Virus record (IMG/VR): IMGVR_UViG_3300000928_000191
Location: 1-33,210 of that record
Strand: one strand, 5' to 3'
Source: a virus
DNA length: 33,210 nucleotides
Shown: piece after piece, positions 1-33,193 of the stretch
Numbering within the stretch: the stretch's first letter is position 1
How the letters are laid out: the number at the start of each line of letters is the position of its first letter
Position numbers and translations under genes: made by a program
Notes under the pieces: model-generated
Databases searched by the model: none
Told to the model about the DNA's origin: nothing
Seen by the model: only the letters and a program-made list of their open reading frames with translations

Positions 1-3
1 TTA

Positions 4-906
4 TTACCCTACGACTGAATGGCCGCGCCCCTTCCAGCGCTCAGCTGGTATCCCAACCAGCTGAGCTGGCACCTTACCTTCATAGCTGGTGCCAACTAAA
101 ATCGTATGCGGTCGATTCCCGTAATTCTCCTGGTAATTTTCAACCATCGCCCTCGCCTCCTTTGCGAGCCGCCCAAGCGCACCGACATAGATTGGCTCCT
201 GCAGGCCGACACCCCCCTGTGGCTTTGCCTGAGCTACAGAGCCCTGCGCCGACACAACTGACAATTTCCCCCCTTGAGGGGGTCGGGGGGAGGTGAGGCG
301 TGCGGGCATCGAGCGGCCCTGCAGGAGACATCCGACGTTGTTAGCGTCAGCTCTACTGTAGGAGCGCTTCGCGCTCTTAAATCCAGCGGACAAGTCCGCA
401 GAGGGGATCTGAGGCTCACAACCCCGCGCCCATTCCTTGAGCAGCGCAGTGGCCTCATCATCGCTCAGATCATAACCGATCAATAGCGCCTCAGCGGCTT
501 TGGTTGCGCGGGCCTGAAAGTCAGTAAACTGCTTCACCTTAGCCTTGCCGCAGGCAGAGCGAATCGAGCGATTCAGCTCATCACGTGCCCCTTCGCAGGA
601 CGTATGGAAGCAACGCAACGTAGGCGCTCCATCGGGCATAAACTCACAGTCACGCCGCGCATTCTTACCGCCGCTGTGACTACCTGCTCCTGGGCAAGTT
701 AAATAATAGCGACCCTTTGGGTCGGGGGTTAAAGACACCCGCAGAATCTCCGATGCTATATCGAGCACCTCTCCACGAGTAAGCGGCGGAGCATACTCCA
801 CCACCGAGCGGCCCATCGGCATCTTCGAGATCGTCTTCAGATAACGACGCGCATGATCCATCTTATCCATGCGAGACTTCATGCTTTGTGGAGGCCGACT
901 AGACAT
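4..906 (-). CDS. Zinc-finger primase-companion protein
   Basis: A 300-residue protein. Residues about 65-115 hold a CHC2-like zinc ribbon: C-P-G, a histidine, a cysteine, then C-F-H-x-x-C, with a D-G-A-P-T-L stretch between. Such ribbons are known in the DNA-binding part of phage and plasmid primases. It follows the prim-pol/helicase gene with an 8-bp overlap, so it probably supplies template recognition for that primase; this is inference. The start is decided by a strong AGGAGGAGG ribosome site about 8 bases upstream. Residues about 205-220 are a proline/glycine linker encoded by a C5-TTGA-G5 hairpin (269-282). The C-terminal 80 residues show no motif that I recognise. Stop codons stand at 4-6 and 1-3, so the gene is complete. 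Confidence 0.7.
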   Translation of the reverse strand: MSSRPPQSMKSRMDKMDHARRYLKTISKMPMGRSVVEYAPPLTRGEVLDIASEILRVSLTPDPKGRYYLTCPGAGSHSGGKNARRDCEFMPDGAPTLRCFHTSCEGARDELNRSIRSACGKAKVKQFTDFQARATKAAEALLIGYDLSDDEATALLKEWARGCEPQIPSADLSAGFKSAKRSYSRADANNVGCLLQGRSMPARLTSPRPPQGGKLSVVSAQGSVAQAKPQGGVGLQEPIYVGALGRLAKEARAMVENYQENYGNRPHTILVGTSYEGKVPAQLVGIPAERWKGRGHSVVG

Positions 907-2947
907 CGATAATATCCTCCTCCTGAATGAATTTCACCTTCTTCCACCCGCGCTGATCCTTGCCCTCGCGTTCGACGGAGTTACTCTTAGCGGCTTTAAA
1001 TTTCTCAAGCATGAGATCAGGTAGCTTCAATTCGATCTGACGCTGTGACCCCGTCTCCCAACCACGGGCCTCGCAGTATTCGAAGTATGCCTTCACCATT
1101 TCCTCACTGCTGATATCATCATTACGATCTGACGAATGCGTGACACGGCGACCAATGAACGTGCGAAGCGAATCCGACTCATCGAGTAGATCCTGAACGA
1201 TACCCGCCTGACGCTCGGTCAACTTGATGCTCTGGGTCGCCAACACCTTGATAGCACCCTCGATCAACAAATTCAAAATCCCTGATCCTTCGTTTTCAAA
1301 CAGCCAACGCGCGAAATTAGGGATCGGCTTCTCAGGACGCTCGCAAGCGACATGAATGATCGCCAGGCGGCGAGACCACGCCCCAGCATCCGCATTGAGA
1401 TCCAGCTTCAGCCGAGAGTTACATGTAATCCCGAGATTGAAATCACCACGCATGGAGACCTTCTCACGCACACCCTTGACCTCACCCTTGATCAGGTCAC
1501 CGCCAGTCAACGACTTGATGACGTAAGCGCCCTTCTGCATCAGGAAATAGCCAGGGACATCAGAACCGAACAACGCCGTCGCACCAAGGTAAGAGCCGAC
1601 CTCGAAACGCTCGAGCAGCATCTCTGTGCGCAGCTGCTCGCAATTCTCCTCACCGATCATACGCTGGAACACCTCCATCAGCGCCGATTTACCAGCGCCC
1701 GCAGTCCCGGTCAGAATCATGAGCATCTGCGTCACATTCTTCTGCAGCAGCAGCTGGCCACCCCAACGCGTAATCAGATCTATATCCTCATCAGGCAACG
1801 CCCGCTCAAGCAGATCCTTCGTGAATGTAGGGCACTCAGCCGCGCCGTCATAGTTCACTGGAATCTGATTGCGCGAATAGAAATACGGTGAGAATGGCTT
1901 GAGCGTTGGCTGATCCGCAGTCAGATCCAGCATCCCGTTACGCAGATGCACCAAGCCCAGCTTGATCTTAAACACATCATGCTTACCCGTGTAGCCCTTC
2001 AACCAGGTAATCACATTGCCCAGCTTCGCCGAGCTACGAAACTTCGTGCCCCGCAACACGGGATGCCCCAGCTCACGCGAAATCGTCAACATCATCTCGG
2101 CAAGCTTCACTTGGATCCCCTGCTCAGAGATATGATCCCAGCACCCCGTTTCTGAGTTATAAAAATAGAAACGCTCCTCCTTCTCTTCCCAAATTACGTG
2201 ATTGTGATAGATGAAGCGACCAGCCCAATACGGCTCACACATCGCCTTAATTTCCTTCAGCTCACCCAGGGGAGTAAACGACGCCGTCCACGGATCACCA
2301 AACGTCACCTCCAACCGCTTCAGCCATTCATCCTCCCAGGGAGTCAACAAACCAGCAGGCCACGCGATCTCGCGAAAATAAACCTCACGCACAGGCGCTT
2401 CATTCACGAAAGTGTAATCCACCCCATCCGGATGCTTACCATACACGATCGACTGAAAGCCCCGATATTCACCAGTCGCCAAACGACCCTCATTGCGCCA
2501 CTCGCCGAAACACATCACAGACATCTCACCCGTCGCCTCATTCTCGACCTGACGATCAGCAAACTTCAACGCCGAATAAAAAGGAGCCGAGTCCATACCC
2601 CGCGCCTCAGCCTCCGTATCGCGAGTGCATCGGATCCAGATCTGCACACCACGTGCACCACGAGTCACCAACGACTGACGCAGCCCCGGGTTCAGTGAGA
2701 AGAACTCATCCATCAACTCATCATCATCGATATCGATCGCGCACAGCCCACCCGATGGCCCACCGAGCAACACACCCACATTCCCCTTGGCCAGCTTCTT
2801 CTGATACTCCTCCGTCTGCGTCTCCGCAAACTGGACACTCTGCCAGCCCTTAGACACTGGTCCCTTCTTGCCCTTAGGCACCTGCAGCAGCACCACCTCG
2901 GCACCCAGCAACTCATAGAGCTTAGTGATGTGATCCGCGCCGCCCAT
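899..2947 (-). CDS. Prim-pol / SF3 (D5-type) helicase replication protein
   Basis: A 682-residue replication initiator-type protein. The N-terminal 200 residues resemble bifunctional primase/polymerase (AEP) domains: a G-V-L-L-G-G-x-S-G-G-L loop followed by D72-x-D74 metal ligands. At the usual S-x-H motif the sequence reads G-A-R-G-V-Q, so the histidine appears replaced by glutamine. The C-terminal half is an SF3 helicase of the D5/P4 family, with a Walker A G-T-A-G-A-G-K-S near residue 415, a Walker B-like stretch near 462 and the N-containing sensor (I-T-C-N-S) near 502. Family knowledge says such proteins open and prime the origin. It overlaps the exonuclease gene by one base upstream and the zinc-finger gene downstream, so it is part of a translationally coupled operon. 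Confidence 0.88.
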   Translation of the reverse strand: MGGADHITKLYELLGAEVVLLQVPKGKKGPVSKGWQSVQFAETQTEEYQKKLAKGNVGVLLGGPSGGLCAIDIDDDELMDEFFSLNPGLRQSLVTRGARGVQIWIRCTRDTEAEARGMDSAPFYSALKFADRQVENEATGEMSVMCFGEWRNEGRLATGEYRGFQSIVYGKHPDGVDYTFVNEAPVREVYFREIAWPAGLLTPWEDEWLKRLEVTFGDPWTASFTPLGELKEIKAMCEPYWAGRFIYHNHVIWEEKEERFYFYNSETGCWDHISEQGIQVKLAEMMLTISRELGHPVLRGTKFRSSAKLGNVITWLKGYTGKHDVFKIKLGLVHLRNGMLDLTADQPTLKPFSPYFYSRNQIPVNYDGAAECPTFTKDLLERALPDEDIDLITRWGGQLLLQKNVTQMLMILTGTAGAGKSALMEVFQRMIGEENCEQLRTEMLLERFEVGSYLGATALFGSDVPGYFLMQKGAYVIKSLTGGDLIKGEVKGVREKVSMRGDFNLGITCNSRLKLDLNADAGAWSRRLAIIHVACERPEKPIPNFARWLFENEGSGILNLLIEGAIKVLATQSIKLTERQAGIVQDLLDESDSLRTFIGRRVTHSSDRNDDISSEEMVKAYFEYCEARGWETGSQRQIELKLPDLMLEKFKAAKSNSVEREGKDQRGWKKVKFIQEEDIIDV

Positions 2948-3591
2948 TAAGCGGAAACCCCCTCGGCTAGATACTCACGAGTCAACCCGTCGATCATTTG
3001 ATCAAATTTAGGATCCTCACACTCCCCCAAAGAACACCAATCCGTCGTCAACCGCCGAAAGCCCTCCATCTCGTGGACCGCACCGCGCAACGCATTATGC
3101 GGCATCGGCTCCTTGCCCAAATGAAACTCTGCATAGATATCATCCGTGCTAAAACCCTCAGCACACCAATCCATCCCCGACTTCATCGCGTGGCCATACG
3201 CCAACGAATGCAAATCCACCACGCGCCGACTGATCACCTGCGACAGATTCAACGAAACCGAGTCCGGCCAATTCGTCTCAAGAAATCCATAATCGAACTG
3301 CGGATTCTTCCCCCCCAGAATCCACATGCCAGCACAGCCAGCATGCAACCAATCAACCAAGTCAATCAATGCCGATTCAATGGAAACACCCAAGCCCAGA
3401 TCAAGCACATCAATACCATTACACTGCAACGCTGGCCAATCCACACGGCGATCACGCCCCAACGCCACACGGCGATAGAACCGCCGGCCCGATGCATCCA
3501 CCGCACCGATCTCCAAGATCCCGCAAGACTCAGGATCAAGCCCTGTCGTCTCCAGGTCGATCACTACAAAATTTTCAGGCAATTTTCTCAT
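2947..3591 (-). CDS. DnaQ-like DEDDh 3'-5' exonuclease, last Asp replaced
   Basis: A 214-residue protein of the RNase H-like exonuclease fold. Motif I is V-I-D-L-E-T-T-G (D12, E14). Motif II is N-P-Q-F-D (D100). Motif III reads H-N-A-L-R-G-A (H165 to A171), where the family has H-x-A-L-x-D-A. The final metal-binding aspartate is therefore glycine 170. This may weaken or remove nuclease activity, or a nearby acidic residue may substitute. It overlaps its upstream neighbour by 4 bp and its downstream neighbour by 1 bp, between clamp and primase-helicase genes, which fits a proofreading or processing factor acting with a borrowed host polymerase. Confidence 0.8.
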   Translation of the reverse strand: MRKLPENFVVIDLETTGLDPESCGILEIGAVDASGRRFYRRVALGRDRRVDWPALQCNGIDVLDLGLGVSIESALIDLVDWLHAGCAGMWILGGKNPQFDYGFLETNWPDSVSLNLSQVISRRVVDLHSLAYGHAMKSGMDWCAEGFSTDDIYAEFHLGKEPMPHNALRGAVHEMEGFRRLTTDWCSLGECEDPKFDQMIDGLTREYLAEGVSA

Positions 3592-3785
3592 TTCACATCC
3601 CCCACTTCCGCGACCACATCCAGGCGCGTCATTAAATTAGATTCAGCCGCCTCAAACGACGGCCCATATGCATGGCGCAACCCTTCAGCACCCTCCGACA
3701 GATACACCCTCGAAACGAACGCATCCTCCCGAGGCGCACCAAAGCCAGTCGCCTCAGTCTTCACTTCTCCGATCACTAAACTCAC
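3588..3785 (-). CDS. Small protein of unknown function
   Basis: A 65-residue, mildly acidic protein with no motif, membrane segment or signal that I recognise. I call it real because both ends form 4-bp overlaps with the flanking genes (clamp-FtsK gamma upstream, exonuclease downstream). This is the pattern of the rest of the operon. Its position suggests a replication accessory role, but nothing in the sequence shows one. Confidence 0.6.
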   Translation of the reverse strand: MSLVIGEVKTEATGFGAPREDAFVSRVYLSEGAEGLRHAYGPSFEAAESNLMTRLDVVAEVGDVK

Positions 3786-4720
3786 GATTCACCCCCTTCA
3801 TCAGAATCATCCGCTGGCACCTCAGTCACCAGCACCTCACGCGGCGTCGCACCATTATCGGGGCCGACGATACCAGCCTGCTCCAGCTGCTCCTGCAAAC
3901 GAGCCGCCCGATTGTAGCCGATACGCAAGTGCCGCTGCAGACTCGCAGTCGATGCACGCTGAGTGCGCACCAATAGCTCCGTCGCTTGACTAATCAGCGG
4001 ATCCAGATCGTCGTCACCGCCCGCTGCATCATCCTCAGGCTTATCAAAATTAAAGCCCACACCAGGCTCGCCACAGGCCCAGTCTGGCCAGCTCACCACC
4101 GGGAACAATTCCTCATCCACGCGCAGAGGCATGACCAACGCAAACAACCGGTCATCCTTAAGGAAGCGCACATACACCGCCGATGCATCATCCGTGCAAT
4201 ACGTCGCCACACTCGGCACGCCAAACTCTCCCAACGTTTTCCAGACTTTAGAAATATCCGCCATCAAGTCCGCATTCAGAGCACCCGATCCCCGACGCAA
4301 TTGCACCGACGCATCACAAATCGCCCGCCAATTCGGGAACAGCTCATCACTCGACCGAGCCCGCCAAGACATCTGCTTATGGAGCGCCTCCAGCTCCAGC
4401 TGGCATTGCCCCGTGTCCTCATCGAGCAGCTCCACAGTCAGCACCGCATTCTCCAGCTTCGTGCCTAGCTTCGCCTCACCCATCTCTTTGATAAACACCA
4501 AAGGGATCGCCACTTTCAACGGCTCATCACCTGCGAAAATATACTCAGCGTCATAATAAACCATGCCGATCAATCGAGTCCCATCCGTCGCGCAGAAAAT
4601 CAGCCGATTCTCCTGTATTTCCATTGCCACACACTGCAGCGCCACTCGACACGCATCCTTCGAAGCGAAATGAGCAAGCGCCTTACACACCTGCCACGGG
4701 AAATTGAATATTTGAATCAT
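3782..4720 (-). CDS. Sliding-clamp-like protein fused to an FtsK gamma winged helix
   Basis: A 312-residue protein in two parts. Residues 1 to about 205 look like a DNA polymerase sliding clamp: the A-T-D-G-T-R-L loop (44-50) matches the T-D-G loop of beta clamps, F-P-N-W (128-131) matches the region before the domain linker, and V-M-P-L-R (196-200) matches the conserved end of bacterial DnaN (V-M-P-M-R-L). The length fits two clamp domains rather than DnaN's three. After an acidic linker (228-239), residues 237-300 match the FtsK/SpoIIIE gamma domain: R-A-S, L-Q-R, R-I-G-Y-N-R-A-A-R-L, A-G-I-V-G-P and P-R-E-V-L-V. In FtsK this domain binds the KOPS polar sequences. The combination suggests a clamp placed or oriented by DNA sequence, or one linked to XerCD/dif recombination. 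Both parts are clear; the combined role is unknown. Confidence 0.8.
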   Translation of the reverse strand: MIQIFNFPWQVCKALAHFASKDACRVALQCVAMEIQENRLIFCATDGTRLIGMVYYDAEYIFAGDEPLKVAIPLVFIKEMGEAKLGTKLENAVLTVELLDEDTGQCQLELEALHKQMSWRARSSDELFPNWRAICDASVQLRRGSGALNADLMADISKVWKTLGEFGVPSVATYCTDDASAVYVRFLKDDRLFALVMPLRVDEELFPVVSWPDWACGEPGVGFNFDKPEDDAAGGDDDLDPLISQATELLVRTQRASTASLQRHLRIGYNRAARLQEQLEQAGIVGPDNGATPREVLVTEVPADDSDEGGES

Positions 4721-4726
4721 AGTTAT

Positions 4727-5104
4727 TTACTCTTTCGTTAATTCAGGACACTCACACATCCCCACATATTTAAACTCGATCCGAGTCACCTCATCCCACG
4801 GCTCACACTTCATCTCCCCGCAAAACATATCAACGAAGCCCCCCCCCGACAGATTCGGGAAACCCTCCTTAGTCGCTTCCAAGCAACCATAATCAGGATC
4901 TTTCACCATACGCTCCAACGGCTCACGCCGAACAGACACCACCTCGATCTCACCCAGACGCTCGATCTGCTCACCAGGCTTCAGCCCCTGGCACTTCACA
5001 CAGCCCATCAGCCGATCCCCCACCTTCAAGTTCTCCCAACCCAGCCGCCGAGTCACTCTCTTTGAGCGATCCATAAACTGAGCCTGAGTCAGCCAAAAAG
5101 ACAT
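4727..5104 (-). CDS. ASCH-like domain protein
   Basis: A 125-residue protein. The pattern F-W-L-T, K-R-V-T-R-R-L-G-W, L-K-V-G-D, G-L-K-P-G-E, and a later V-S-V-R-R-E-P-L matches small ASCH-like phage proteins. ASCH is a PUA-like fold thought to bind RNA or modified nucleotides. I chose the ATG at 5104 over the GTG at 5113 because GTGAGGA would serve as its ribosome site. It contains several cysteines (C-V-K-C near 38-41, C-E-C near the end) that could bind a metal. It lies between an unknown protein and the clamp gene in the early operon. Confidence 0.6.
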   Translation of the reverse strand: MSFWLTQAQFMDRSKRVTRRLGWENLKVGDRLMGCVKCQGLKPGEQIERLGEIEVVSVRREPLERMVKDPDYGCLEATKEGFPNLSGGGFVDMFCGEMKCEPWDEVTRIEFKYVGMCECPELTKE

Positions 5105-5109
5105 GTTCC

Positions 5110-5517
5110 TCACGCCGCACCCCCATCCTTAAAAGATCCGTGCCCATTCGAGCGATTCGTGGACGACACCATCAAAAGCTCCGGCTCCCCAAGCAGCACA
5201 GGGCGCACCACCTTTTGCAGCTCACGCATCAGGCGCGGCAGACCAGTGATCCACTCTGCCCCCGCATAGCTCGCATACACATACCCCACGCCCAGCACAC
5301 ACTGCAAACCAGCGCACTGCGTAAACGCCTCACCCGTGTCAATCGCCGACAACCAAGCCGACAACTGACCAGACAAACGATGCGCGCACACAGCCAATAT
5401 CTTATTATCCTCAGAGCCAATAATACCAACCACCTCAGAGCCCAGCCGCACCCGAAAGCAACGCACCACAGCAGTCCCCACACTCGGCGAATCAATTAAT
5501 TCTAGATCAGTAATCAT
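5110..5517 (-). CDS. Early protein of unknown function
   Basis: A 135-residue protein that I cannot assign. It has alternating small hydrophobic and aromatic stretches but no clear membrane helix. The last 20 residues are polar and Ser/Asn/Gly-rich, probably disordered. Its start is overlapped by a 15-codon leader ORF (5507-5554) that has the better ribosome site, so translation may be coupled. The stop (5110-5112) lies just upstream of the ASCH-like gene. Confidence 0.55.
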   Translation of the reverse strand: MITDLELIDSPSVGTAVVRCFRVRLGSEVVGIIGSEDNKILAVCAHRLSGQLSAWLSAIDTGEAFTQCAGLQCVLGVGYVYASYAGAEWITGLPRLMRELQKVVRPVLLGEPELLMVSSTNRSNGHGSFKDGGAA

Positions 5518-5554
5518 AACAGTAAAAGTTAGAAGTTAATATTTTCTTACCCAT
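5507..5554 (-). CDS. Possible 15-residue leader peptide
   Basis: An ATG with a good AAAGGA ribosome site 6-7 bases upstream opens a 15-codon frame (starting M-G-K-K-I-L). It stops inside the first codons of the next gene. The gap it occupies is AT-rich compared with the flanking genes. It could couple ribosomes onto the 135-residue gene, or be chance; no homology was checked. Confidence 0.3.
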   Translation of the reverse strand: MGKKILTSNFYCYDY

Positions 5555-5595
5555 GATATTCCTTTATTTTTATTGTTAGTTTTGTATCCGAAATT

Positions 5596-5847
5596 CTAAT
5601 ACGCATCTTTGCGCTGTGCCTTCATTTTTAGAAAACGCTCATGCTCGATCTCAGCGGGGGACTTACCACCGGGACGCTTCCCCGTCCGAAACTGGCTCAA
5701 CAAGCTCAGCGCTTGCTTATACGAGCACGGCTCACCCAAGCACTTCTCAACCTTACGCGCCTTCACATCGATGCTCACCCCGTCGCCAAGCGGTTCAAGA
5801 ATCTCCACAATACGAGCACGCCGCCCTGCAGTTAATTTCTTCTTCAT
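5596..5847 (-). CDS. Small basic protein of unknown function
   Basis: An 83-residue, lysine/arginine-rich protein beginning M-K-K-K-L-T-A-G-R-R. The middle could form helices of a DNA-binding fold, but I see no definite HTH. It overlaps the upstream HTH gene by 4 bp (ATGA) and is followed by an AT-rich gap of about 80 bp. It probably belongs to the early regulatory group. Confidence 0.55.
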   Translation of the reverse strand: MKKKLTAGRRARIVEILEPLGDGVSIDVKARKVEKCLGEPCSYKQALSLLSQFRTGKRPGGKSPAEIEHERFLKMKAQRKDAY

Positions 5848-6098
5848 AGCCCCAAGCCCTCCCGTTTGCGCTTCAGCTCCAGCACATCATCACGCCAAAA
5901 ACGCTTCGTGCCAGGGATATAAAAAATGTCACCCTCATCGACGTGCCGGCTCTTAAAATTTGGATAGCAAATACCGAGCAGCTCAGCAGCCACTTGACCA
6001 CTCACTCGAGGGCTTTGCTTAGCCTCCAAAGCAGCCAAGACTTGCCGCGTCACCAAATCGGCGACTGCGTGATCACGCTCTGTCAGCACCACGCTCAT
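5844..6098 (-). CDS. Excisionase/MerR-like HTH protein
   Basis: An 84-residue protein with a compact winged-helix pattern. V-S-G-Q-V-A-A-E-L-L-G-I (about 32-43) is followed by a recognition-helix stretch, then G-D-I-F-Y-I-P-G-T-K-R-F-W-R-D-D-V-L, where a wing strand and W/F-x-R-x-D-V-L resemble HTH_17/excisionase proteins. It is the third gene of the minus-strand early operon, with 4-bp overlaps on both sides. It may act as Xis or as an early regulator; the sequence does not decide. Confidence 0.6.
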   Translation of the reverse strand: MSVVLTERDHAVADLVTRQVLAALEAKQSPRVSGQVAAELLGICYPNFKSRHVDEGDIFYIPGTKRFWRDDVLELKRKREGLGL

Positions 6099-6274
6099 CA
6101 GTCCAGATCCTCCGCTTTAAGAATTCCCATCCGGACCGCACGATGCTGCGACCGCAAGCGCCTTTCAGCACGCCCCTCCAACCAAGCAACCGCCGCCCGC
6201 CATAGCCCACGCAGCTCACAGCCGAGAATCGACAGAGCCACACAGACAAAAAAAGCGATCAGCAAGTAAGCCAT
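6098..6274 (-). CDS. 58-residue small membrane protein
   Basis: This short gene begins M-A-Y-L-L-I-A-F-F. Residues 3-19 form one hydrophobic helix (with C11 and C19), followed by an arginine-rich, amphipathic cytoplasmic tail. Its TGA overlaps the ATG of the HTH gene (ATGA), and it starts 2 bp after the stop of the gene before it. The tight packing is the main reason to call it real. A single-helix membrane protein early in the lytic operon could affect superinfection or host physiology, but this is speculation. Confidence 0.6.
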   Translation of the reverse strand: MAYLLIAFFVCVALSILGCELRGLWRAAVAWLEGRAERRLRSQHRAVRMGILKAEDLD

Positions 6275-6275
6275 C

Positions 6276-6434
6276 TTAAGCAGCCACCTCTTTGTTAATT
6301 TTTCGAGCCTCGCTGCGCAGATACATCTCCGTTGCCACCTTCGGAGTCACCCCCAACAGATCAGCCACCTCAAAGATCGTAACCAACGCCTCAAACCCCA
6401 AAGAGCCGTAATCTATATCCATTTGCGTTTTCAT
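6276..6434 (-). CDS. 52-residue HTH-like protein, first gene of early operon (Cro position)
   Basis: Residues about 18-38 (I-F-E-V-A-D-L-L-G-V-T-P-K-V-A-T-E-M) have the spacing of a helix-turn-helix. It is divergent from the repressor-like gene at 6524, which is the position of cro in lambdoid phages. Its ATG lies within the first operator palindrome and has no ribosome site. With the TTGACA at 6470-6465 as -35, the predicted transcript starts at about the ATG, so the message may be leaderless. Function is inferred from position. Confidence 0.55.
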   Translation of the reverse strand: MKTQMDIDYGSLGFEALVTIFEVADLLGVTPKVATEMYLRSEARKINKEVAA

Positions 6435-6505
6435 GGGTTAATGCATTTACCCATTACGGGTTACTGTCAAACCCATTATCGAAAAAACTTGCAAAAGTTA
6501 CCCAT
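6433..6505. promoter_or_regulatory. Divergent promoter/operator region of the lysis-lysogeny switch
   Basis: Site 1 (6433-6454) is a 22-bp palindrome, ATGGGT-TAATGCATTT-ACCCAT, with one mismatched pair. Site 2 is GGGTT-N7-AACCC (6458-6474). A half site TTACCCAT lies at 6498-6505. The shared element is GGGTTA/TAACCC. On the minus strand a perfect TTGACA (6470-6465) lies in site 2, with its -10 inside site 1, so a bound repressor would cover the early promoter. Toward the plus gene, GGGGAAG (6509-6515) is the ribosome site. The layout fits a phage immunity switch. Confidence 0.7.
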
Positions 6506-6523
6506 TTGGGGAAGTTTTGAATA

Positions 6524-6937
6524 ATGAAACAAGACGACGTCAAAGACTGGCTCAAAGAAAACAACCGCACTAGGGCATGGCTGGCAGATCAATGCGAAGC
6601 TGCCACGCAGACAGTAAACAACTGGCTATCAACTGACCGTGGCATACCAAACAAAGCAGTGATTATAATTGAGCGCTTAATGGAAGCCGATCGCATCCGC
6701 GAAACAGAAGGCACCAAGATCGCCCATGCGCTCACGCTCGAATTCTCATCCGAGGATTTCGACGCCATCGAGGAAGCCGCCCATCGTGCAGACAAAAAGA
6801 TTCGCACCTGGGCAACCGACACACTCCGCAATATGGCAACCCGCAAACCAGAAGACATTTTCAGAGAGCTACAAGCCGCCGAAGATCCCGAACCTTACAC
6901 CGGCAAAAAAACAAACGCCGAAGACAAACCAGCGTAA
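6524..6937 (+). CDS. Repressor-like protein: XRE-type HTH plus ribbon-helix-helix
   Basis: A 137-residue protein. Residues about 5-45 are an XRE-type HTH: W-L-A-D-Q-C-E-A-A-T-Q-T-V-N-N-W-L. Residues about 68-105 (A-L-T-L-E-F-S-S-E-D-F-D-A-I-E-E-A-A-H-R-A, then W-A-T-D-T-L) look like a ribbon-helix-helix/DUF1778-like domain. The tail is charged and disordered. It faces the early operon across three operator sites, so it is the best candidate for the prophage repressor. It has no S24/LexA peptidase domain, so induction by RecA cleavage is not expected from the sequence. The ATG is set by GGGGAAG 9 bases upstream. Confidence 0.65.
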   Translation: MKQDDVKDWLKENNRTRAWLADQCEAATQTVNNWLSTDRGIPNKAVIIIERLMEADRIRETEGTKIAHALTLEFSSEDFDAIEEAAHRADKKIRTWATDTLRNMATRKPEDIFRELQAAEDPEPYTGKKTNAEDKPA

Positions 6938-7014
6938 AAGACGCCCCCGGGCATAACTTGATACAGTTTCCAGCACAGGTGAAGCCCGCACTAGAAACTA
7001 TAAGATGCCCTTAT

Positions 7015-28077: not shown

Positions 28078-28137
28078 GCCTAACTAGACGCTTCTGGTCA
28101 ATTCCGCTTCGCTCCATGCCAGAGCAACTTGTTCTCT
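28078..28137. repeat. attC: attC-like site 2
   Basis: R'' GCCTAAC (28078-28084), 5-nt spacer, L'' arm GCT-(T)-CTGG-(T)-CA (28090-28100), 16-base variable end with CGCTTCG, L' arm TG-CCAG-AGC (28117-28125), 5-nt spacer, R' GTTCTCT (28131-28137). The bulged bases fall at the same positions as in site 1. The outer three pairs differ (GCT/AGC against GGA/TCC) but still pair, which is compensatory change. It overlaps the last codons of the methyltransferase gene. Confidence 0.7.
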
Positions 28138-28825
28138 AGAATAATGTAGTCTGGCGGGTTTCACGTTCTACCCTCTCGCAAGCGGCATTGAAATAGTCCT
28201 CGTCTAACTCTGAGCCTGTCAGGTGCATTCCTGCATAGTGGGCGGCTATCGCGCTCGATGCGCTGCCGAGATGGGTGTCTAGTATCTTCATTCCCTCCGT
28301 AGCATAGTTTGCATAGATCCAGTCATAGAGTTTTACTGGCTTCTGTGTGGGGTGGATTCGCTTCCCTTCTTCGCACTTGCGGAAGCCCGCCCAAAGGATT
28401 TTGCAGACCTTTACCGAGTCCCTGCAACTCACGTAAGCCAGCTCCGCCTGTGATAGCGTCATTGTATCTGGCACACCCTTCTCCCACACGATCCATCCGC
28501 CGGATGGTGGGAGCATATCCGCGAAGTAATTGCCGCCCCATATAATCACATCTTTTGCCACTCTGCCCACCTCCTTAAAGTATTTCCGGTCAGGTCTTAC
28601 TCTGTCCCAATCTTTCCTCTCGTATCCCACGCCCTTTGCCCCGCTCCATTTGCCGCTGTCATTGTCAGCCATAGAGCTTTCCCCATCCCATCCGATGCCA
28701 TAGGGCGGATCGACCACGGCAAGGTCGAAGTGATCGTCCGGGTATTCTGCCATGAGTTCCATGCAGTCCATATTCCGGAGGTCTAAGTTTTCGGTTTTCA
28801 TGCGTTAATAATTAAGAGAGAGAAC
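28132..28825. mobile_element. Cassette-like unit C, methyltransferase
   Basis: The unit starts with the R' box GTTCTCT of site 2 and ends near AGAGAAC (28819-28825), its exact complement. The match extends to 11 bp (ACTTGTTCTCT at 28127-28137, AGAGAACAAGT at 28819-28829). A complete L-box stem beyond 28830 is not visible, so the far end is only partly supported. Confidence 0.4.
28136..28801 (-). CDS. DNA N6-adenine (or N4-cytosine) methyltransferase
   Basis: A 221-residue beta-type methyltransferase. The catalytic motif IV D-P-P-Y-G lies near residues 35-39, before motif I, which reads L-D-T-H-L-G-S-A-S near 180. Between them are I-H-P-T-Q-K-P-V and W-E-K. Phage copies of this type protect phage DNA from host restriction. 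It is not coupled to terminase and lies in the cassette island, with a 29-residue leader frame just upstream. Confidence 0.85.
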   Translation of the reverse strand: MKTENLDLRNMDCMELMAEYPDDHFDLAVVDPPYGIGWDGESSMADNDSGKWSGAKGVGYERKDWDRVRPDRKYFKEVGRVAKDVIIWGGNYFADMLPPSGGWIVWEKGVPDTMTLSQAELAYVSCRDSVKVCKILWAGFRKCEEGKRIHPTQKPVKLYDWIYANYATEGMKILDTHLGSASSAIAAHYAGMHLTGSELDEDYFNAACERVERETRQTTLF

Positions 28826-30854: not shown

Positions 30855-31357
30855 ATAGCGCCCCCAGATCCACCCGAGCGATTACTCGCCGCCCGTTTAG
30901 CCAAAGCTGCAAATGGATCATCCTCCTCTTCATCCGGCCCACCCGAGACCCGAGTCCGCGCTGCAGGCGTCATACCAAATTCCTTCAACCAGCCCATCAT
31001 TTCAGCCTGCGCATCACGCTGAATTTTAACGTAAGGCGAGGGCATAGGGTAGCCATTCGGGGACCGCACAAGCATGCCGGTCTCTTTGATTTTCTTAATC
31101 GCATCCAACCAGGTCGAGTAGGCATTGCAATACGCCGCCAACGCCATCACATCCAGATCCGAGATCAGACCCAAGCCAGCCAGCTGCATCACCACGCGCT
31201 TCCATTCACGTTTAGCCGCAGACGGCAAAAAAGACGGCGGCTTCAGATTCGTCAAATTCTCCGGCTTAGGCTCATTCGGATTCGCGGCCCGCTTCCCAGG
31301 ATTCCCCTCGAGCGCCTTAATTACGGACGGTTTCCCCACTGGCCCGCGCTTACCCAT
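30851..31357 (-). CDS. terS: Terminase small subunit, P27-like
   Basis: A 168-residue protein with the P27-family start (G-K-R-G-P-V-G-K-P-S, L-E-G-N-P-G-K-R) and the helical segments E-W-K-R-V-V-M-Q-L, L-D-V-M-A-L-A-A-Y-C-N-A-Y. It recognises the packaging site for TerL. It overlaps the ParB-methyltransferase gene by 8 bp. Confidence 0.9.
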   Translation of the reverse strand: MGKRGPVGKPSVIKALEGNPGKRAANPNEPKPENLTNLKPPSFLPSAAKREWKRVVMQLAGLGLISDLDVMALAAYCNAYSTWLDAIKKIKETGMLVRSPNGYPMPSPYVKIQRDAQAEMMGWLKEFGMTPAARTRVSGGPDEEEDDPFAALAKRAASNRSGGSGGAI

Positions 31358-32579
31358 GCGTCGCCTCCTTTCGCACCGAGCAACCTAGCTCAGTCATACG
31401 CTCAAGAATCACAGCGCAATATTTCGGATCCAACTCCATCGCAAAACAGCGCCGGTTCAAATTATTAGCCGCCAACATCGTCGACCCAGACCCGCCAAAT
31501 GAGTCCCAAATCACGCCCCCACGCGGGCAACTATTCGTGATTTGGTAAGCCATCAACTCCACCGGCTTCATCGTCGGATGCAGATTATTCCTGCGCGGCT
31601 TATCGAATTCGAGCACAGTAGTCTGCGCCCGATCCGCCAGCCAGAGATGCGCCCCCTTATCCTTCCACCCATAGAGACAAGGCTGATGCTTCCAGCCATA
31701 AAGACACGGCTCATGTTTCCACTGGTGGTCTTGTCGCCCCAGGACAAGCGAGTTTTTCACCCACACCAGGCACTGACGAATCTTCCAACCAGCCGCATCC
31801 GCAGCCAGGCGGAAATTCAATTCCTCAGAATCCGCATGCCAAATGTAGAAAACACCGCCCGGCTTCAACACCGAATCAGCAGCCCGGAAAGCATCCACAA
31901 GAAAAGCCCGAAAATTCTTATCCGATTTCTTATCATTCTTAATCGTCAGCTTCTCAGCGCCGCCCCCCTGGTAATCCACATTATATGGCGGATCAGTCAG
32001 CAGCAGATCCACCAACTCACCACCCGCCAAGCGCTTCACATCCACCGCCGAAGTCGAGTCACCACAAATCAACCGGTGCCCATCGATCAAATACAAATCA
32101 CCAGTCTGAACAGCCCACTTCTCATCGAGCGCCGCAACTTCCCCAGGCGGCAAGTCAGGCATCTGATCAAATTCAACATTCTCATCGTCCCGGAAAAAGT
32201 CATCCGGATCAAAACCAGTCAGCTCAACATTGTAACCAAGATCCATCAAATCAGACAGCTCAGCCTTAAGCAGCTTCATATCCCAACCCGAGCCCTCAGC
32301 GATCCGATTGTCCGCCAAGATCAAAGCCCGAATCTGAGTCTCACTCAAATGCCCCAACCGAATACAAGGCACCTCATCCATGCCCAGCTTCTTAGCCGCG
32401 ATCAACCGGCCATGCCCAGCCGCAATCATTCCCGACGCATCAATCAAAATCGGATTCGTAAAACCCCACTCAGTAATCGCAGAGCACAACTCCGCAATTT
32501 GCTTTTTCGGATGCGTCCGAGCATTGCGCTCATATTCACGCAGCTCACTCACTTTCACTATTTCAAACTTTGGAATCAT
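31350..32579 (-). CDS. ParB-like nuclease domain plus DNA methyltransferase
   Basis: A 409-residue protein from the ATG at 32579, which has GGGGAGA upstream and overlaps the TGA of the HNH gene. Residues 1-100 are a ParB/Srx-like domain (S-E-L, A-R-T-H-P, G-H-G-R at about 55-58). From about 150 on there is an N6/N4 methyltransferase with D-P-P-Y-N (196-200), H-P-T-M-K-P-V-E-L and a C-terminal motif I (D-S-F-G-G-S-G-S-T). Such fusions near terminase genes are common in phages. A tandem duplication W-K-H-E/Q-P-C-L-Y-G lies near residues 290-308. Its DNA units (31678-31730) are diverged. Confidence 0.9.
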   Translation of the reverse strand: MIPKFEIVKVSELREYERNARTHPKKQIAELCSAITEWGFTNPILIDASGMIAAGHGRLIAAKKLGMDEVPCIRLGHLSETQIRALILADNRIAEGSGWDMKLLKAELSDLMDLGYNVELTGFDPDDFFRDDENVEFDQMPDLPPGEVAALDEKWAVQTGDLYLIDGHRLICGDSTSAVDVKRLAGGELVDLLLTDPPYNVDYQGGGAEKLTIKNDKKSDKNFRAFLVDAFRAADSVLKPGGVFYIWHADSEELNFRLAADAAGWKIRQCLVWVKNSLVLGRQDHQWKHEPCLYGWKHQPCLYGWKDKGAHLWLADRAQTTVLEFDKPRRNNLHPTMKPVELMAYQITNSCPRGGVIWDSFGGSGSTMLAANNLNRRCFAMELDPKYCAVILERMTELGCSVRKEATHG

Positions 32580-33193
32580 AAGCCATCTCCCCCCACGCCC
32601 CCCGGGCAATCGTAACCATCTGTCATAAGCGTCATTTTCGAGCCATTTTGATCCGATCCAGAACCCCCCACGCTCAAATTCGCGGGATCGGTAACCCCAT
32701 CTTCCCAAAACTTGCGCACGGATTTTTTTAACTGGACAGACGGTAGGACACGATCTGCACCGCAGGTTTTGCCCCCCCCCTCCCTCCGAGCTGAGCCTCG
32801 AACTGATCGACCTTGCTCGCTTTGAGTTTTTTTCGAGTGGCAGCTAGCGCAGAGTGACTGACAATTTGATTCGTCAAATCGTTCACCTCCTTCAGCGATT
32901 GGTTTGATGTGATCGACCTGGGTGCCGGGGGCCGTGCAACTTCCACCAACACAGAGAGGATGACGTCGAAGAAACCAGATTCGGAATCGCCGCCAAGCAG
33001 CCGAAGAATAGAAGTAACCATTCGAACGATGATACTCGGATCGATCCACACTTGGATTTGATCGAAGATGGGGGGGACAAAACCGAACCCCGGGGCCAAC
33101 TAATTCGACACAGCCAGGCTCAGAACACCGCCGCCTCGGCTGAGATGCTGGGCTCCTTTCCTTTTCCTTACACTTATGACACTTCTTTTTCAT
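32576..33193 (-). CDS. HNH endonuclease
   Basis: A 205-residue protein. The HNH core is at 75-122: C81-x4-C86, V-D-H (94-95), N110, C115-x2-C118-H119. The start is a separate Cys-rich zinc-like part (C-H-K-C, C-x4-C, C-P-P-H). In HK97-like phages an HNH protein next to terminase takes part in cos cleavage. A C9 run (32772-32780) falls after the domain, and the remaining 60 residues show no fold that I recognise. The start lies 17 bp from the window end. Confidence 0.85.
   Translation of the reverse strand: MKKKCHKCKEKERSPASQPRRRCSEPGCVELVGPGVRFCPPHLRSNPSVDRSEYHRSNGYFYSSAAWRRFRIWFLRRHPLCVGGSCTAPGTQVDHIKPIAEGGERFDESNCQSLCASCHSKKTQSEQGRSVRGSARREGGGKTCGADRVLPSVQLKKSVRKFWEDGVTDPANLSVGGSGSDQNGSKMTLMTDGYDCPGGVGGDGL

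Follow-up and report, generated by a model that had tools for sequence, protein, structure and literature searches.

Can a sliding clamp carry a DNA sequence reader of its own, and what might such a protein do for a phage? This question is raised by an ATG-initiated open reading frame at positions 3782-4720 (minus strand) of a 33.2-kb virus record (the 33,210-nucleotide stretch that was analysed as a whole, hereafter the window), which encodes a 312-aa protein. A sequence-only reading of the DNA had described this protein as a sliding clamp joined by an acidic linker to an almost textbook FtsK gamma domain, and this architecture was borne out. Neither of the two outcomes named there as refuting, an N-terminal part with a fold other than that of a clamp or a gamma region devoid of its recognition helix, was observed. 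The clamp-gamma protein was found to contain the following components, all encoded on the minus strand: a two-domain DnaN-type sliding clamp (residues 1-204; 4109..4720), an acidic linker (residues 205-237; 4010..4108), an FtsK gamma winged-helix domain (residues 238-299; 3824..4009) and, as judged from the sequence, an acidic C-terminal tail (residues 300-312, with the stop codon; 3782..3823). The linker had a pI of about 4 and a charge of about -7, and the confidence of the structural model was low at residues 218-232 (pLDDT <50).

The gamma half matched the Pfam family PF09397 (FtsK_gamma) over profile positions 2-63 of 63, with a score of 88.9 bits (gathering threshold 30.6) and an E-value of 1.8e-25. 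A record-wide search with the same family returned residues 238-299 as the sole gamma match in the record (E 4.6e-28 at 3824-4009), and comparison with the FtsK gamma structures in the PDB (2ve8/2j5o) gave an E-value of about 5e-12. In the AlphaFold model, the winged helix was predicted with a pLDDT of about 90, including the recognition helix (residues 269-281; 3878..3916, minus strand). Upon alignment, R263, N270, R274 and E277 corresponded to R1289, N1296, R1300 and E1303 of E. coli FtsK, the last three of which we take to be the KOPS-reading residues; N270, R274 and E277 lie within the recognition helix, and R263 just precedes it. The full PF09397 domain and its contact residues are common to FtsK/SpoIIIE and the window protein, whereas the motor and membrane part of FtsK/SpoIIIE are absent from the latter: no RecA-type motor was matched in Pfam at E up to 1, and the NCBIfam FtsK model matched only over its last 65 positions. 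In FtsK, no residue affects XerD activation more strongly than R1289; gamma uses overlapping surfaces for XerD and KOPS, the positions that touch XerD all being among those that touch DNA, and three gammas bind one KOPS octamer, by which the motor ring is loaded on one side (PMC5052618).

The clamp half was recognized through its relatives. Single-sequence searches gave weak matches to PF02767 (E 0.007), TIGR00663 dnaN (3.3e-4) and the phrog_947 clamp (6.9e-6), and the curated cut-offs were not reached (17.1 of 27 bits for PF02767; 19.7 of 137.65 bits for TIGR00663). The profile searches proposed in the sequence-only reading were thus strong for PF09397 but weak for the DnaN models. Alignment by hhalign against a profile of eight other short phage clamps, from which the window protein was excluded, covered residues 12-204 with 96.9% probability and an E-value of 1.8e-10. 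Profiles of these eight clamps in turn matched solved PDB beta clamps at 1e-15 to 1e-20 (best 3e-20), so the relatives link the weak sequence of the window protein to the DnaN clamps and give it its clamp identity. The AlphaFold model of the protein, which was built from an alignment of 35 sequences, showed a mean pLDDT of 77.1 and a pTM of 0.61; with an alignment of 5 sequences only, the pLDDT was 45. As a Foldseek query against the PDB, the model returned beta clamps as all of its 50 best matches. Superposition by VIA-align of model residues 1-201 on domains II-III of DnaN (6ap4, residues 129-380) revealed a Z-score of 16.2 and an rmsd of 2.7 Å over 179 residues, and superpositions on residues 125-366 of DnaN structures gave Z-scores of 13-16 with rmsd values mostly of 2.6-3.4 Å. 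The 35-sequence alignment included known clamps, and the model is therefore not fully independent evidence of the fold; the hhalign test is independent, as the window protein was kept out of the profile.

On the basis of the model, the clamp half corresponds to domains II and III of DnaN without domain I. Bacterial DnaN contains three domains of about 120 aa, while the window protein has two, and it is better described as a two-domain phage clamp than as DnaN proper. The two proteins share the fold of domains II-III and the partner pocket but are opposite in two respects, in that DnaN possesses domain I and lacks a gamma tail. Since domain I is absent, the ring would be expected to be a trimer rather than a dimer, and three subunits would be needed per closed ring, as in the trimeric T4 clamp (PMC11139829). 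We found no close relatives of the full-length protein in viral_contigs or genome_contigs.

The A-T-D-G loop and the V-M-P-L-R end, which had been singled out earlier as clamp-like, proved to be segments of the DnaN partner (CBM) pocket. In the comparison of the pocket, which was made without N320, Y323 and V344 (not mapped), DnaN residues R152, L155, T172, G174, R176, L177, P242, M362, P363 and R365 were identical to R25, L28, T45, G47, R49, L50, P129, M197, P198 and R200 of the window protein, respectively. Conservative swaps were present at V247 (to I), V360 (to L) and M364 (to L), and H175 and R246 were changed to T and A. Across the 35 relatives, four columns were invariant (L28, T45, P129 and M197), and their DnaN counterparts L155, T172, P242 and M362 are listed within subsite I of the partner pocket (PMC11139829). 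The window protein therefore possesses a largely intact DnaN-type partner pocket, and the conservation suggests that the clamp is functional and attracts proteins with clamp-binding motifs, probably those of the host. Because the pocket is conserved, use of a host polymerase by the phage clamp is plausible. The related statement that the phage has no polymerase held in part: no replicative DNA polymerase was found among the part of the open reading frames scanned, but the primase shows a weak Prim-Pol match (PF09250, 2.5e-5).

Two short sequences resembling the clamp-binding motif were also observed. A DNA methylase at 28136-28801 (minus strand; PF01555) ends in ...RETRQTTLF, and its C-terminal QxxLF was the sole match among 12 phage proteins scanned for the motif; this methylase, as well as the clamp-gamma protein, was without a blastp match in the colinear sister phage described below. 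Residues 202-206 of the window protein itself (4103-4117, minus strand), after the end of the clamp, read DEELF, a looser resemblance for which self-binding would be possible but speculative.

The clamp-gamma gene lies within the early-gene block of a temperate phage, whose record also contains an integrase-like gene, a primase-helicase, a DnaQ-like exonuclease, a terminase, a portal and methylases. The replication protein is the primase-helicase (Prim-Pol and D5-type; 899..2947, minus strand; PF08706 8e-7, phrog_1156 6e-44), and the DnaQ-like 3'-5' exonuclease (2947..3591, minus strand; PF00929 6.3e-8, phrog_192) is the next conserved gene downstream of clamp-gamma. The integrase-like gene, on the plus strand, is judged to be of the tyrosine type from its sequence and position and had no Pfam match at 0.001. 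The record contained no tRNA genes, and a repeat scan of positions 1-7000 revealed only short repeats of two or three copies. A weak ParB-N-like domain fused to an N6/N4 DNA methylase was observed at 31350-32708 (minus strand).

A sister contig, IMGVR_UViG_3300025632_000046, matches the window colinearly across most of the genome, with identities of 70% for the primase, 72% for the terminase, 81% for the integrase-like protein and 56% for the exonuclease. Neither a gamma domain nor anything matching the clamp-gamma protein was found in it; both flanks of the missing stretch were present, in a record that may be incomplete. The distance from the exonuclease to the next conserved gene was 0.46 kb in the sister versus 2.0 kb in the window. 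Two small genes next to clamp-gamma were likewise not found in the sister: a 65-aa gene overlapping its 3' end (3588..3785, minus strand; no family) and a 128-aa gene just upstream (4727..5113, minus strand; no significant family). Because a colinear sister with both flanks lacks the gene, clamp-gamma is accessory and dispensable in this lineage, and phage replication is independent of it. Toward the host, a prophage search with the terminase found nothing, and the nearest phages by terminase were only 35-37% identical.

To the author of the sequence-only reading, no well-described protein with this pairing was known. The literature that we searched agreed, since it contained no paper on clamp-gamma or RdgC-gamma proteins, but GenBank does contain the pairing: Gordonia phage Nyceirae gp49 is annotated as 'FtsK DNA translocase; DNA polymerase III sliding clamp (Beta)'. 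We found clamp-gamma proteins in about 20 Gordonia phage records and in the proteobacterial prophage L043, so that known parts form a recurrent and apparently undescribed combination. Nyceirae gp49, Kiko gp52, Bowser gp53 and BBQValindra gp53 have the same order as the window protein (two-domain clamp, linker, C-terminal gamma), although they are only about 25% identical to it and their gamma is of the actinobacterial type, with A or K and D at two KOPS-reading positions. We found no functional study of these Gordonia proteins, which are annotated inconsistently; names among the clamp-gamma relatives sometimes include 'RusA-like resolvase' or 'FtsK-like translocase'. Purky gp55 has a gamma and no clamp domain recognizable in Pfam. 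Purifying selection acts on the Gordonia phage gamma, with dN/dS values of 0.09-0.34 between closely related pairs, while the linker drifts.

The matches of the L043 clamp are phage proteins that bear the name DNA polymerase III beta subunit or the mistaken name RusA-like resolvase. Gamma is missing from at least 25 viral clamps that are 56-68% identical to the L043 clamp, and the L043 fusion is therefore recent. The nearest relatives of the L043 gamma (76-81%) are found on the phage primase-helicases L010, L061, L054 and L067, and the neighbours of the L043 gene (a methylase, a gene that is presumably DUF5131-like, and an integrase) are those of RdgC-gamma genes elsewhere, for example in prophage L044. 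Since both its kin and its neighbours are those of other gamma proteins, gamma moves between proteins, and separate clamp-gamma fusions exist in three lineages, namely the window, the Gordonia phages and L043.

The two-domain phage clamps of phrog_3007 and phrog_12598, which are named 'RusA-like Holliday junction resolvase', share the clamp fold and the pocket with the window protein over their whole length and, in the members checked, have no gamma except in the Gordonia phages, L043 and the window. Members such as L093:5007-5654 and L043:5278-6186 match two-domain DnaN-type clamps despite the RusA name, which is also found on RefSeq phage records of these clamps. For the window protein itself the name 'RusA-like resolvase' was rejected, as there was no RusA Pfam match at E up to 1 and the fold is that of a clamp instead. 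In Xanthomonas phage Rb1 (L093:4045-5654), an RdgC without gamma adjoins a two-domain clamp without gamma and then an ssDNA-binding protein, so that both ring types occur within one phage.

A census of 80 viral gamma loci, which were found with the window gamma as the query and form a query-shaped sample rather than a frequency, contained 54 RdgC-gamma proteins, five primase-helicases (DUF5906), two ParB-like proteins, one clamp and several short unknowns. RdgC forms a dimeric ring, and its non-specific binding of DNA probably takes place in the pore (PMC11077077). The RdgC-gamma proteins of Pseudomonas and Vibrio phages resemble the window protein as DNA-ring proteins with a C-terminal gamma, but their ring part is RdgC instead of a clamp. 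The small terminase of Bacillus phages Sam46 and Sam112 also carries an FtsK gamma (PMC8190038); as in the window protein, this gamma is of the host type and comes without a motor, but it is located at the N-terminus of a packaging protein. Gamma is, on the strength of these fusions, a mobile phage module. Further observations were a ParB-like phage protein with two tandem FtsK gamma domains (L021:5185-6600) and short phage proteins of unknown function with a C-terminal FtsK gamma (L006, L013, L019, L034, L052 and similar), of which the L034 type contains, in addition, a segment resembling ribosome modulation factor (PF04957, 5e-6, slightly below the cut-off).

In phages of known host, gamma follows the lineage of the host FtsK. 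Gordonia and Mycobacterium phage gammas were 57-72% identical to actinobacterial FtsK versus 32-46% to E. coli/Pseudomonas FtsK, and the gamma of Pseudomonas phage PA8 was 68% identical to P. aeruginosa FtsK. The window gamma was 48-55% identical to seven reference FtsK proteins and fitted none of them well, and its host therefore probably lies outside these lineages.

The suggestions that gamma reads KOPS sites on the phage genome or couples phage DNA to dimer resolution were not supported. KOPS and SRS octamers, GGGNAGGG, GAGAAGGG and looser forms included, were not enriched in the window, and the minus-strand excess of GNGNAGGG was that of shuffled sequences. There was likewise no KOPS enrichment in two other gamma-bearing phages, which carry RdgC-gamma. 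No dif-like site was found in the phage within 3 mismatches, and XerD half-sites occurred at chance. Given this lack of enrichment and of a dif-like site, gamma is unlikely to act via KOPS or dif on the phage's own DNA, unless the motif differs. In Pseudomonas phages PA8 and TC7 (L195, L197), KOPS octamers were fully polar (0:7 and 8:0) and not enriched; polarity as an effect of gamma was ruled out, as it occurs with and without a gamma protein.

The best explanation, which we hold tentatively, is that gamma aims or loads the clamp ring at host-type DNA sites, where it recruits host clamp-binding proteins. Three clamp-gamma subunits would close a six-domain ring resembling T4 gp45, to which three gammas would be attached by flexible linkers. 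Gamma would deliver the subunits to sites of the KOPS type; as KOPS shows no enrichment in the phage, these would most likely be sites in host DNA. There it would load, orient or park the ring, and a clamp loader would be needed less or not at all. The conserved pocket would then draw in clamp-binding proteins of the host (Pol III, repair polymerases). This explanation is favoured by the fold and profile of both halves, the conserved pocket and gamma contact residues, the separate fusions, the host matching, the purifying selection on gamma in Gordonia phages and the fact that gamma is most often joined, in the viral sample, to a second kind of DNA ring, RdgC. The missing KOPS enrichment and the sister phage that does without the gene speak against it. 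The correspondence between three gammas per trimeric clamp and three gammas per KOPS in FtsK is an analogy and only suggestive; it does not extend to all gamma proteins, given that RdgC is dimeric.

A somewhat improbable alternative is that gamma is a captured winged helix that simply raises affinity for double-strand DNA, any specificity for a sequence or a partner being irrelevant. The many unrelated gamma partners, some with unknown N-terminal parts, and the phage genomes lacking KOPS enrichment would fit such a tail, but host-lineage tracking and conserved base- and XerD-contacting residues are unexpected if specificity is irrelevant, with the caveat that recent capture from a host would likewise produce host matching. 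It is rather unlikely that the clamp merely slides along DNA as a passive carrier, takes gamma to host XerD and turns on XerCD recombination without FtsK, thereby resolving phage or host DNA multimers or influencing integration. Recombination is activated by gamma when it is fused to XerC or XerD, and a gamma peptide of as little as 9 aa has this effect too (PMC5052618), the key residue R1289 is kept as R263, and a contact with host XerD would require gamma to follow the host lineage as it does; however, the phage has no dif-like site and chance numbers of half-sites, it has its own tyrosine-type integrase, which is 81% identical in the sister phage that lacks clamp-gamma, and residue conservation does not discriminate, as the residues that contact XerD all contact DNA as well. 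Least probable is host takeover, in which gamma rivals FtsK for KOPS/XerD and/or the clamp rivals host DnaN and segregation, division or replication is disturbed: the gene is accessory, its gamma is host-matched, related proteins are classed under host takeover in PHROGs and mycobacteria are poisoned by overexpression of phage clamps (PMC11373665, PMC9339283), but a preserved partner pocket and partners such as RdgC or a primase-helicase are not needed by a decoy, and a temperate phage would presumably gain little by blocking host division.

Aiming or loading of the ring by gamma, if it occurs, would make the clamp-gamma protein a sliding clamp positioned by DNA sequence rather than by a loader at a primer end, and a small, loader-free model for ring loading. 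The PHROG entry called RusA-like resolvase in fact comprises clamps, and many phage annotations need correction accordingly. More broadly, gamma has been shuffled among many DNA proteins of phages and is matched to the host, a pattern that could be explained for hundreds of phages by what phage gamma binds. Its repeated attachment to sliding clamps, RdgC, an SF3-type helicase, ParB-like proteins and a small terminase could mean that gamma is a mobile loader for DNA rings, with host-specific polar sites setting the place and orientation of closure; we consider this reading doubtful but worth stating, because, if it is true, a sliding clamp would load at a DNA sequence and not at a primer end by means of a clamp loader.
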